Of a stretch of DNA of 39,186 nucleotides, positions 13,353 through 23,378 are shown in pieces. The stretch covers positions 1 to 39,186 of the forward strand of contig JADGAP010000011.1 in the NCBI GenBank assembly GCA_015231965.1. The letters run 5' to 3'. The notes under the pieces were generated by a model, which saw nothing but the letters and a program-made list of their open reading frames with translations, was not told the DNA's origin and did no database searches. A program made the translations under genes and the position numbers. The DNA comes from Magnetococcales bacterium (GTDB lineage Bacteria > Pseudomonadota > Magnetococcia > Magnetococcales > JADGAP01). The stretch's first letter is position 1. Each line of letters starts with the position of its first letter.

Positions 13353-13410
13353 GAAAAAGGTGAAGGGGGGTATTGGGGGGACAGTTCCCTGTCCCCCCAA
13401 GGTCTTGATT
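13353..13410 (+). repeat. G-run hairpin repeat, copy A
   Basis: An A-run with GGTGAAGGGGGG precedes a perfect 12-base-pair hairpin at 13373-13400 (TTGGGGGGACAG, loop TTCC, complement), then GGTCTTG. Copies B (13613-13790, - orientation) and C (29039-29230) share the same core. Copy A lacks the longer right part that B and C have in common. Confidence 0.8.
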
Positions 13411-18586: not shown

Positions 18587-18627
18587 TTGATTTGCGTCAA
18601 CCCGATGGAACTGGTTTCTGGCATAAT
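18587..18627 (+). promoter_or_regulatory. FNR/Dnr-type box and -10 element of nosR
   Basis: TTGATTTGCGTCAA (18587-18600) matches the FNR/Dnr/Nnr consensus TTGAT-N4-ATCAA at 9 of 10 positions. CATAAT at 18622-18627 would be the -10 element, predicting a transcript start near 18635. The box centre (18593.5) then lies at -41.5, the exact spacing of class II FNR-type activation. NosR starts 115 bases further down. Confidence 0.82.
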
Positions 18628-18749
18628 GCCAGCCTGTGTGAAAAGACGCGCCTCACGACCGTTTCCTCCGGGGAACGGGCGTCGAGTCGTTTTCGCCATT
18701 GGGGCGACGGCGGGCAACGGGTCGTTCCCTTGATTGAGGAGTGATCGCC

Positions 18750-20933
18750 ATGGGATGGGCGGGATGGTTCTCCTCCCCGAGGTCGGGGTGGACGTCTTGG
18801 ATGCGGGTGGGTTGGCTGGCGGCGGTGTTGGGGATGGTGGGGGGCGTCGGTGACGGTGCCGCCCGGGAGTTCGGGGCCTACGACGTGAAGGTGGAGCCCG
18901 CGGAGGTGTATCCCGGAGCGGATCGCTTCGATCCCTTTGCCGGACAACCCCCCGCCGCCACCGCCTATCAGGGCGGCAAGCCGGTGGGAACGGTCTTTCG
19001 CACCAGCGATATCGGCTATTCGGGCAAGCCCATCGAAATTTTGGTAGGGATGACCCGCGCCGGAGAGATCGTCGGGGCCAAGACGCTCAAGCACGCCGAA
19101 CCCATCTTGCTGGTGGGGATTCCAGAGCAAAAGCTGTTTGATTTCGTCACCCGTTACGTGGGGCGCAATCCGGTGGAGGCGCACCGCAGCGGGATCAAGC
19201 AGGGGGTGGACGCCATCAGCGGGGCCACCGTCACCGCCATCGTGATCAACGACGGCATTCGCAAGGCCGCCCTCAAGGTGGCTCGCCAGGCCGCCGCCGG
19301 AGGGAGCGCCGTCGCCGCCGTTGCCGAGGAGTCGGTGAAGGTGCGTCAAGCTCCCCATCAACCCGCCGACTGGACTACCTTGTTGGGCGAGGGGGCGGTG
19401 CGTCGGCTGAACCTCTCCCATGGCGACGTGGACGCCGCCTTTCAAAAAATGGGGGTGGGTTCCGGCGAACCTTACGTCAAGGTGTCGCCCCCCGATGAAC
19501 TGTTCATCGACCTGTACGCGGCCATGGTCTCGTTGGAGACGGTGGGGCGCAACCTGCTGGGGGAGGCGGAATATCACAATCTTCGGCAGTGGCTGGCCCC
19601 CGATCAACACGCCTTATTGATCATGGCCAACGGCAGCTACTCCTTCCGGGGGTCGGGATTTGTTCGGGGGGCGATCTTCGACCGCTTCAAGCTGAATCAG
19701 GAGGGGGGCAGTCTGCTGTTCCGCGATCAGCACTACCGCCGTCTGGGGCTGCTGGCCACGGGGATGCCCGAGTTCACCGAGGTCGGCCTGTTCAAGATCC
19801 CCCCCAACGCCAGCTTCGACCCCGCCCGCCCCTGGGCCCTGGAACTGCTGGCCTCCCGCCCGCTGGGGCCCATCGAAAAGGCCTACACCAGCTTCATGCT
19901 GGACTTTACCCTGCCGGAACGGTTTCTCGTCCGCACCCCGCCCCCCGTTCCCGCCGCCGCGCCCGCCGCCGCCGGAGCGTCGTTGTCGACCTTGGAGCCG
20001 GAATCGGATCAACCGCCGTTGTGGGAGCGCATCTGGCAGGATCGGATGGGGGATGTCCTCGTCCTCTCCGTCTCCCTGGCCATGTTGACCATGATCTTTT
20101 TCTTTCAGGAGTGGCTGGTCACCCGACCGGTGCTGGTCAACCGCTTGCGCCGGGGGTTTCTGCTCTTTTCCGTGGTGTGGATTGGCGGATACGCCCAGGC
20201 GCAGTTGTCGGTGGTCAACGTCTTCACCTTTTTCCACGCCTTGATGGGGGGCTTCCGCTGGGAATTTTTCCTCATCGAGCCGTTGATTTTCATCTTGTGG
20301 AGCGCCACCGCCCTGTCGTTGCTCTTCTGGGGGCGGGGGGCCTTCTGCGGATGGCTCTGCCCTTTCGGGGCGCTGCATGAGTTGCTCAATTGGGTCGCCC
20401 GCCGCTTCGGGGTTCCCCAATACCGCCTGCCCTTCGCCTGGCATGAGCGGTTGTGGGCCTTCAAGTACATCATCTTTCTCGGGCTGCTGGCGGTCTCCCT
20501 CTCCTCCATGGCGGCGGCGGAGCGGCTGGCCGAGGTGGAACCCTTCAAGACCGTGGTGCTGCTCCGCTTCGACCGGGAGTGGCCCTACGTCCTCTGGGCG
20601 GCGGGGCTGCTCTTCGCCGGTCTGTTCGTGGAGCGGTTTTTCTGCCGCTACCTTTGCCCGTTGGGGGCGGCGTTGGCCATTCCCGGGCGGATGCGCATCT
20701 TCGCTTGGCTCAAGCGTCGTCGTCAGTGCGGCGAATTGTGCCACCAGTGCAGCGACGATTGCCTGGTGCAGGCGATTCAACCCAATGGCGAGATTCATCC
20801 CAACGAATGTCTGTATTGCCTGCGTTGCCAGCTCAACTACAGCAACGAGGCGGTCTGTCCCACCCTGATCATGCGGCGCAACCGGCGGGAGCGGCGGGGC
20901 GGGGCCGAACCCAAGGGCGAATCCGAATCCTGA
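18750..20933 (+). CDS. nosR: NosR, polyferredoxin flavoprotein for N2O reduction
   Basis: This is a 727-residue membrane protein that supplies electrons to NosZ and is needed for its expression. Order: N-terminal signal/membrane anchor (about 19-36); periplasmic FMN-binding domain with DAISGATVTA, where the Thr of SGAT (Thr160) is the expected covalent FMN site; a further periplasmic region; about five to six membrane helices with two CxxxCP motifs (CGWLCPFGA and CRYLCPLGA); a C-terminal domain with Cys-rich [4Fe-4S] motifs around CGELCHQCSDDC and CLYCLRCQ. ATG 18750 has GAGGAG 8 bases upstream and is preferred to GTG 18741. Covalent flavin loading needs an ApbE/NosX, which is not in this cluster. 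Confidence 0.96.
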   Translation: MGWAGWFSSPRSGWTSWMRVGWLAAVLGMVGGVGDGAAREFGAYDVKVEPAEVYPGADRFDPFAGQPPAATAYQGGKPVGTVFRTSDIGYSGKPIEILVGMTRAGEIVGAKTLKHAEPILLVGIPEQKLFDFVTRYVGRNPVEAHRSGIKQGVDAISGATVTAIVINDGIRKAALKVARQAAAGGSAVAAVAEESVKVRQAPHQPADWTTLLGEGAVRRLNLSHGDVDAAFQKMGVGSGEPYVKVSPPDELFIDLYAAMVSLETVGRNLLGEAEYHNLRQWLAPDQHALLIMANGSYSFRGSGFVRGAIFDRFKLNQEGGSLLFRDQHYRRLGLLATGMPEFTEVGLFKIPPNASFDPARPWALELLASRPLGPIEKAYTSFMLDFTLPERFLVRTPPPVPAAAPAAAGASLSTLEPESDQPPLWERIWQDRMGDVLVLSVSLAMLTMIFFFQEWLVTRPVLVNRLRRGFLLFSVVWIGGYAQAQLSVVNVFTFFHALMGGFRWEFFLIEPLIFILWSATALSLLFWGRGAFCGWLCPFGALHELLNWVARRFGVPQYRLPFAWHERLWAFKYIIFLGLLAVSLSSMAAAERLAEVEPFKTVVLLRFDREWPYVLWAAGLLFAGLFVERFFCRYLCPLGAALAIPGRMRIFAWLKRRRQCGELCHQCSDDCLVQAIQPNGEIHPNECLYCLRCQLNYSNEAVCPTLIMRRNRRERRGGAEPKGESES

Positions 20934-20997
20934 AACAGGGCGTCGAGGCGGGGGAGGGGGGTGAACGCCCTTTCCCCGCATCGCGTTCCACGTTGTT

Positions 20998-21016
20998 GAT
21001 AATGATAACAAGCATT
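20998..21016 (+). promoter_or_regulatory. Fur-box-like sequence before nosZ
   Basis: GATAATGATAA at about 20998-21008 matches the left 11 bases of the 19-base Fur consensus; the right half is degenerate. Within TTGTTGATAATGATAACAA it also forms an imperfect inverted repeat. Weak support for metal or Fur control. Confidence 0.35.
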
Positions 21017-21018
21017 AC

Positions 21019-21032
21019 TTGACCGGGATCAA
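21019..21032 (+). promoter_or_regulatory. FNR/Dnr-type box before nosZ
   Basis: TTGACCGGGATCAA matches TTGAT-N4-ATCAA at 9 of 10 positions, with the mismatch in the left half-site. A TAGAAT at 21049-21054 is a candidate -10 element, but the spacing (centre to -10 about 26 bases) is shorter than at nosR, so the exact start is uncertain. It suggests nosZ has its own anaerobic/NO-responsive promoter. Confidence 0.65.
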
Positions 21033-21156
21033 TTTGAATCAATACCGCTAGAATTTTGTAACAAAGTTCAATGAGTTACTAAGTGTCCATGTTGGAGGCA
21101 TGGATAATATCTGGCATTTATTTTGTTGCGTGATATGGCCGAACTATGTCATACAG

Positions 21157-21301
21157 GTGCGTGAAAACACGCACACGCCCCCCGCCGGTGTTGTGAAATC
21201 CACCGCGGGGGAGCTTTTGGGCGGCTCATAAGGAATGGGAGCCGTGGGAGTCAGGGACGGCGCCCCCTCCGCCATGGAGCCCCGGTCTCCATGGCGGAGG
21301 G
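21157..21301 (+). promoter_or_regulatory. Structured nosZ leader with three hairpins
   Basis: Three stems are visible. First, GTGCGTG-AAAA-CACGCAC (21157-21174, 7 base pairs). Second, a C-rich/G-rich stem with GGTG/CACC (about 21178-21216). Third, a perfect 15-base-pair stem CCCTCCGCCATGGAG (21265-21279) with its complement at 21287-21301, followed by CCATTTT. The last could terminate or attenuate transcription 140 bases before nosZ. GCCG-GGGAGTCAGG near 21240-21256 slightly resembles a cobalamin-riboswitch B12 box, but other conserved parts are not seen. Confidence 0.5.
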
Positions 21302-21440
21302 CCATTTTCGGGACGCACCCTGGGGCGGCGTCCTTCCCTCGAAGTTGGGAATATTCGGAAAACAGGGGCGAAGCAAGACGCAAGCCCCGTCGTCATAGGG
21401 TCAATCCACGGGATCTTTCTATTGGGATGGAGGAAACGAG

Positions 21441-23378
21441 ATGTCGGAAAAGCATGGGCAGGGCGTCACTCGGCGTGATCTGTTGGGAACCGGCATCAAG
21501 GTGGCCACCATCGGCGGCTTGGCCGGGGTGGCGGGCCGGGTGGCGGTGGGCGGCGGCGTGGTGACGGCGGCGGGTCTGCCCGGCGCGGCCCAGGCTTCCG
21601 GCAACGCCGACGTGCCTCCCGGTCAGTTGGACGAATATTATGGTTTCTGGAGCGGCGGTCACTCCGGCGAGGTGCGGGTGCTGGGTCTGCCCTCGATGCG
21701 CGAGCTGATGCGCATCCCCGTCTTCAACCGCGAGAGCGCCTCCGGTTGGGGCCTGACCAACGAGAGCAAGAAGATCCTCTCCGAGGGGCTGACCCCCGAG
21801 ACTAAGGAGTATCTCAAGAAGCAGGGCATGGTCACCTTTGACCACGGCGACACCCACCACCCCCGCATGTCCTACACCGATGGGGCCTACGACGGGCGGT
21901 ATGTGTTCATCAACGACAAGGCCAACACCCGCATCGCCCGCATCCGTTGCGACATCATGAAGACCGACAAGGTGCTGGAGATCCCCAACGCCCACGCCAT
22001 CCATGGTCTGCGCCTGCAACGCTTCCCCAAGACGGGCTACGTCTTCTGCAACAGCGAAATGCGCATCCCCCTGCCCAATGACGGTACGAACATGAACGAT
22101 CCCAAGAAGTACGTGGGCATGTTCTCCGCCGTCGACGCCGACACCATGAAGGTGGCCTGGCAGGTGATGGTCAGCGGCAATCTGGACAACAACGACTCCG
22201 ACTATCACGGCAAGTACGTGGCCGCCACCTGCTACAACTCGGAAGAGGGGGTGACCACCGCCGAGATGACCGGCTCCCCCACCGACCACGCGGTCTTCTT
22301 CAACATCAAGGAGATCGAAGCGGCGGTGAAGGCTGGCAAGGTCAAGACGATCAGCGGCGTGCCGGTGGTGGACGGGCGCAAGGAGGCCAAGTCCCAATTC
22401 ACCCGGTACATCCCGGTGGCCAACAGCCCCCACGGCTGCAACGCCACCCCCGATGGCAAGTACGTCGTACTCAACGGCAAGCTCTCCCCCACCGTCACGG
22501 TGGTGGAATGGGCCAAGCTGGACGATCTTTTCGCGGGCAAGATCGCCGAGAAGGATTGCATCGTCGCCAATCCCGAACTGGGTCTGGGGCCGTTGCACAC
22601 CACCTTCGACGGTCGGGGCAACTGCTATACCTCCGTCTTCCTCGACAGCCAGATCGTCAAGTGGAACATGGCGGACGCCATCAAGCAGTACAGCGGCGAC
22701 AAGTCGGTCAATCCCGTCCGCCAGAAGCTGGACGTTCACTATCAGGTGGGCCACACCAACGCCTCCATGGCCGAATCCAAGGAGGCCGACGGCAAGTGGC
22801 TGGTGGCCTTGTGCAAATTCTCCAAGGACCGCTTCCTCAACGTCGGTCCGTTGAAGCCGGAAAATGATCAGTTGATCGATATCTCCGGCGACGAGATGAA
22901 GCTGGTGCATGACGGCCCCACCTTCGCCGAGCCCCACGACGCCATCATCGTCCACAAGTCCAAGGTCAATCCCGTCGAGATCTACAACCCGAACGACCCC
23001 CTCTTCGCCGACCTGCACGCCCAAGCCAAGAAAGATGGCGTGGAACTGGGCAAGGCCAGCGTCGTGATTCGCGACAAGAAGGATTCCAAGAAGGTCCGGG
23101 TCTACATGTTCAGCCAGGCCCCCGCCTTTAGCATGACCGACTTCACGGTCAAGAAGGGCGATGAAGTGACGGTGATCGTCACCAACATCGACGACATCGT
23201 CGACCTGACCCATGGCTTCACCATGGTGGGCCACAACGTCTGCATGGAGGTCGGCCCCCAAGCCTCCGCTTCCATCACCTTCAAGGCGGATCGCGTCGGC
23301 GTTCAGTACTACTACTGCCAGTGGTTCTGCCATGCGCTCCACATGGAGATGCAGGGCCGGATGCTCGTGGAAGCGTAA
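21441..23378 (+). CDS. nosZ: Nitrous oxide reductase, clade I (Tat-exported)
   Basis: NosZ reduces N2O to N2 in the periplasm. The 645-residue precursor begins with a Tat signal (TRRDLLGTG, Arg11-Arg12) typical of clade I enzymes. The beta-propeller holds the CuZ cluster ligands, with the first His pair in [12 protein letters not shown]. The C-terminal cupredoxin domain holds CuA: His591 in LTHGF, Cys626, Trp628, Cys630, His634 and Met637 in [12 protein letters not shown]. Start ATG 21441 has GGAGG about 8 bases upstream. Lys and Asp are frequent and synonymous codon use is more biased than in neighbours, in line with high expression. It is followed by nosD after 10 bases. Confidence 0.98.

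Follow-up and report, generated by a model that had tools for sequence, protein, structure and literature searches.

A conserved palindrome beside FNR/DNR-type boxes as a candidate operator of nos and copper genes in Magnetococcales

The nosR-nosZ gap and its hairpins

The window, by which we mean the whole stretch of 39,186 nucleotides that was analysed, contains nosR and, downstream of it, the gene for a TAT-dependent nitrous-oxide reductase, NosZ, the copper-requiring enzyme that removes nitrous oxide (table 1). The two genes are separated by a gap of 507 bp (nosR stop at 20933, nosZ ATG at 21441). Among named loci, those nearest in NosZ belong to Magnetococcales, which places the genome of the window in this order. 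The comparison set holds 21 further nosZ loci (19 or 20 from Magnetococcales); in it the gap is mostly 2-300 bp where nosR was found upstream, with longer gaps in two relatives (523 bp in L016 and 1274 bp in L015); at two of the compared loci an upstream nosR was not found.

Table 1. Genes and sequence features around nosR and nosZ in the window
Feature	Positions	Strand	Basis or remark
nosR	18741..20933	+	NF046105, 802 bits (under the 1000-bit cut-off)
nosZ, TAT-dependent nitrous-oxide reductase	21441..23378	+	TIGR04244, 1060 bits
FNR/DNR-type box TTGATTTGCGTCAA before nosR	18587..18600	+	Followed after 21 nt by CATAAT
-10-like CATAAT before nosR	18622..18627	+	21 nt 3' of the box, class II-like spacing
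Second palindrome copy TGTGTGAAAAGACGCG	18635..18650	+	Second-best matrix match; spans about +2 to +17 relative to the predicted start of nosR
FNR/DNR-type box TTGACCGGGATCAA before nosZ	21019..21032	+	Sequence; many relatives have a box in this position
Possible weak promoter TTGCGT-17-TCATAC directly before the palindrome	21126..21154	+	By eye, coordinates
Hairpin 1, GTGCGTGAAAACACGCAC = GTGCGTG-AAAA-CACGCAC	21157..21174	+	Smallest hairpin
Palindrome before nosZ, core TGCGTGAAAACACGCA	21158..21173	+	Best window match, relatives' matrix
Hairpin 2, GC-rich, arms CCCCCGCCGGTG...CACCGCGGGGG	~21178..21213	+	This genome only (folding, comparison with relatives)
Hairpin 3, GC-rich, single copy	21248..21340	+	This genome only (inverted-repeat and genome searches, relatives compared)

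An earlier note on this DNA had described a long nosZ leader with three strong hairpins, and folding together with an inverted-repeat search found them all. The perfect 15-bp stem that it placed about 140 bases before the ATG is likewise present, at 21265-21301 with its 3' end 139 bases ahead of the ATG, within the imperfect outer stem of hairpin 3 (21248-21266 pairing with 21322-21340); it is the longest perfect inverted repeat of the window, where 10 shuffles give at most 9-11 bp. For the leader a fold of -163 kcal/mol (z = -4.4) is predicted, and 3' of the palindrome described below the fold energy amounts to -0.46 kcal/mol per base, against -0.08 to -0.33 in the leaders of relatives. The leader has no Rfam match at gathering scores, and nothing in 20900-21500 comes near any such score; the same searches yielded no cobalamin element in the leader, where the earlier note had pointed out a resemblance to a B12 box without taking it as sufficient evidence. 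A GC stem followed by a T-run, as in an intrinsic terminator or attenuator, was not found in the leader either.

The large hairpins have no counterpart in the 21 other nosZ loci. A dispersed repeat was considered and rejected, as the rest of the genome matches them just weakly and in part, and a search for homology between the leader and those of relatives gave only the ribosome-binding region of L006 above chance-level pieces. Being single-copy, missing from relatives and without leader sequence in common with them, the hairpins are therefore probably lineage-specific, and we regard the large GC-rich ones as probably an insertion without conserved regulatory role. Dispersed GC-rich palindromes, TTGGGGGGACAGTT.CCTGTCCCCCCAA and one similar, occur in the window at 13373, 13745 and 29063.

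A palindrome conserved within Magnetococcales

When the gaps of relatives are read, TGTGTGAAATCACACA recurs ahead of nosZ. Hairpin 1, the smallest of the three, appears to be a diverged copy of a conserved 16-bp DNA palindrome, TGTGTSAWWTSACACA, which we propose as an operator. At ≤2 mismatches this palindrome lies within 300 bp upstream of nosZ in 13 of the 22 loci (shuffle control, n = 200: mean 0.025, at most 1), and at ≤1 mismatch in 10 of the 22 (shuffle mean 0); the window's own nosZ copy has 3 mismatches. TGTGTSAWWTSACACA was found at 20 places in 17 of 47 Magnetococcales genomes, its reversed-pattern control at 0, and among 398 Pseudomonadota genomes those with the exact palindrome are 10 Magnetococcales and a single further one, which has it in a ferredoxin-like reading frame. 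In named genomes from outside the order, the loci compared have none at ≤2 mismatches. Most nosZ-bearing Magnetococcales carry the palindrome upstream of nosZ or nosR, usually next to an FNR/DNR box, and in some with short nosR-nosZ gaps none lies upstream of nosR at ≤3 mismatches. The string TGTGTSAWWTSACACA was not found in the literature searched.

A matrix built from relatives only and run over the 39-kb window placed the nosZ site first (14.5 bits) and the nosR site second (12.0 bits), the third match scoring 3.2. Sixty random sequences scanned with the same matrix gave best single matches of 14.1 and 13.7 and a best second match of 10.1. The window sites are diverged and chance single matches score nearly as high, so these two sites rest partly on their position.

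The genes that follow the palindrome extend beyond nos. The genome of the window holds four copies at ≤1 mismatch from a relaxed form, one each before nosZ, a CuA-type haem-copper operon, haem O synthase and a TonB-dependent copper receptor. In relatives the targets are nosZ, nosR (L156), copper and other TonB receptors, TonB/ExbBD and PCuAC-Sco1; the copper receptor with a site scores about 700 bits against TIGR01778 in the own genome, L152 and L155, and several TonB and PCuAC promoters have paired palindromes about 20-23 bp apart. Sites without a clear target occur in L148, L154 and L162, and that of L160 is inside a reading frame. The haem-copper operon just mentioned (L169:13128-15421, contig C33) encodes a CuA-like subunit II and a subunit I whose closest PDB entries are ba3-type oxidases; GHPIVYFW reads GHSSQQIN in this subunit I, so the active-site tyrosine is missing, and the enzyme could be a NO reductase. 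A related Magnetococcales genome yielded no norBC (PMC6783814). At L015 a reading frame sits between nosR and nosZ, and a similar frame lies ahead of nosZ in L017; at these frames palindromes flank an FNR-type box on either side.

FNR/DNR boxes, promoters and the search for a factor

The FNR-type box that the earlier note had assigned to nosZ itself is TTGACCGGGATCAA, with equivalent boxes in relatives. It occurs in this exact form nowhere else in the genome and agrees with TTGAT-N4-ATCAA at 9 of 10 positions; judged as a motif it does not stand out in the window, 0.47 occurrences being expected by chance at ≤2 mismatches. By the criterion of a class II FNR/DNR promoter, a -10 about 22 nt after the box, the spacing fits at nosR, and the nosZ box has no good -10 there. 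At nosR the order is box, 21 nt, CATAAT, 7 nt, palindrome; with the palindrome over the predicted start, a factor bound there would most simply repress by blocking initiation. At nosZ the distance from box to palindrome is 125 bp, compared with about 17-53 or 105-120 bp in relatives. A promoter pattern scan of the leader found none, and for a sigma-70 promoter before the palindrome, assessed over the whole set, 19 of 300 shuffles were equally good.

A single Crp/Fnr member was found in this genome; it has no N-terminal cysteine cluster like that of FNR and is therefore more likely DNR-like; two relatives also have a cysteine-bearing FNR-like protein. In five relatives (L003, L004, L005, L012 and L015) a long inverted repeat encloses the FNR-type box that follows nosR; in L015 a T run comes next, as if the box sat inside the nosR terminator. 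The Fur-box-like stretch at 20998-21016 matches the 19-bp Fur box at 14 of 19 positions, the best in the window, a score reached by 1 of 30 whole-window and 5 of 300 local shuffles; no such stretch was seen in the nosR-nosZ gaps of relatives.

We searched for the factor that would recognize the palindrome among the Rrf2, Fur, Crp/Fnr, ArsR and BlaI/CopY families in six genomes and did not find it among these families. CopY/BlaI was rejected, as the six genomes have no member of this family, and an autoregulation-type site at ≤2 mismatches was absent beside the Rrf2, Fur, Crp/Fnr and ArsR genes examined. Neither does the palindrome match the HcpR/CRP or the NsrR site: its half-site, TGTGT, differs from that of HcpR/CRP (wTGTGA-N6-TCACAw), and only one Crp/Fnr member was found in the genome, while comparison with the NsrR consensus (gATGyAT-N5-ATrCATc) gave no match. 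An ArsR-family protein with conserved cysteines (L219, with orthologues L216, L217, L218 and L223) is present in at least 5 of the 6 genomes; in G018 it lies about 5-6 kb from PCuAC-Sco1, and it is a candidate for the missing factor.

A proposed two-input control of the nos promoters

In regulatory terms, this arrangement raises a question: What would a palindrome found beside FNR/DNR boxes contribute to nos expression? Comparison shows that it is conserved in sequence, specific to the order and placed ahead of a set of nos and copper genes. Its role as an operator is well supported; from there we infer binding by a protein, copper status as the signal and repression as the outcome, the factor being probably a repressor. 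On balance we favour a nos promoter with two inputs, an FNR/DNR-family activator and a putative transcription factor of a copper regulon. A Crp/Fnr-family activator at the FNR/DNR-type box would switch the nos genes on in response to low oxygen or NO, and the putative factor at TGTGTSAWWTSACACA would govern the acquisition and delivery of copper, along with respiratory enzymes that contain it, across Magnetococcales; at nosR, class II activation would be combined with a repressor over the start. We suggest more tentatively, at somewhat less than an even chance, that nos, the uptake of copper across the outer membrane and its delivery in the periplasm are controlled in Magnetococcales by an undescribed copper-responsive factor acting via this palindrome.

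A factor sensing a signal other than copper (NO, redox, oxygen or haem) could occupy a real operator, copper genes belonging to the set because copper is needed by NosZ and related enzymes. The sites at nosZ, nosR and the own haem-copper operon, whose enzyme without the active-site tyrosine may be a NO reductase, adjoin FNR/DNR boxes, and Brucella nosA belongs to the NnrR regulon (PMC1274295); yet in the loci scanned no FNR-type box lies within 400 bp of the sites at PCuAC-Sco1, TonB/ExbBD and the copper receptors, and the common denominator of the targets is copper handling, which makes such a signal rather unlikely. If the palindrome acted as RNA, forming a hairpin within the leader of nosZ, this would agree with its frequent position downstream of the predicted FNR/DNR start at nosZ and with the joint variation of its arms (e.g., TGTGTCATATGACACA), but a DNA dyad explains the symmetry of the arms equally, and inverted (L016) and paired copies exist. 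In L014, moreover, the palindrome is 17 bp from the box, and a start at -41.5 would leave it before the transcript. Because both orientations occur and the L014 site would precede the transcript, we read the palindrome as DNA and consider its working as RNA very improbable.

More improbable still is the proposal of the earlier note that the long leader is a structured RNA, an attenuator or riboswitch tuning nosZ to copper or cobalamin. The strength of folding and a perfect stem longer than chance provides speak for it, but relatives lack the hairpins and their leaders fold far less per base, Rfam gives no match and no terminator-like site was found. No conservation of the large hairpins was found in relatives, which by the note's own criterion leaves the riboswitch part unsupported. 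The link to copper made in the same note is plausible, not via RNA but via the DNA operator to which its smallest hairpin points.

The two-input promoter has partial parallels in known systems. As in the enterobacterial hcp-hcr promoter, where an NsrR operator lies downstream of an FNR site (PMC1274295), the nos promoter has an FNR-type box and a second palindromic operator downstream of it; the operator, however, is TGTGTSAWWTSACACA rather than the NsrR consensus, and it lies ahead of nos and copper genes. DNR/NnrR control of denitrification genes, with the consensus CTTGATnnnnATCAAG (PMC1274295), is matched by the FNR-type boxes before nosR and nosZ and by a Crp/Fnr member that, as for DNR, has no cysteine cluster, but here the box is coupled to a second operator, and that of nosZ stands 125 bp from the palindrome and lacks a good -10 at class II spacing. 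In Bradyrhizobium diazoefficiens low copper lowers nos expression with the direct regulator unsettled, and CsoR acts indirectly on nirK and nor; as far as the available text of this source goes, no operator is seen in common with the Magnetococcales palindrome (PMC10457146). A defined operator offers a handle for finding the regulator that would tie nos to copper.
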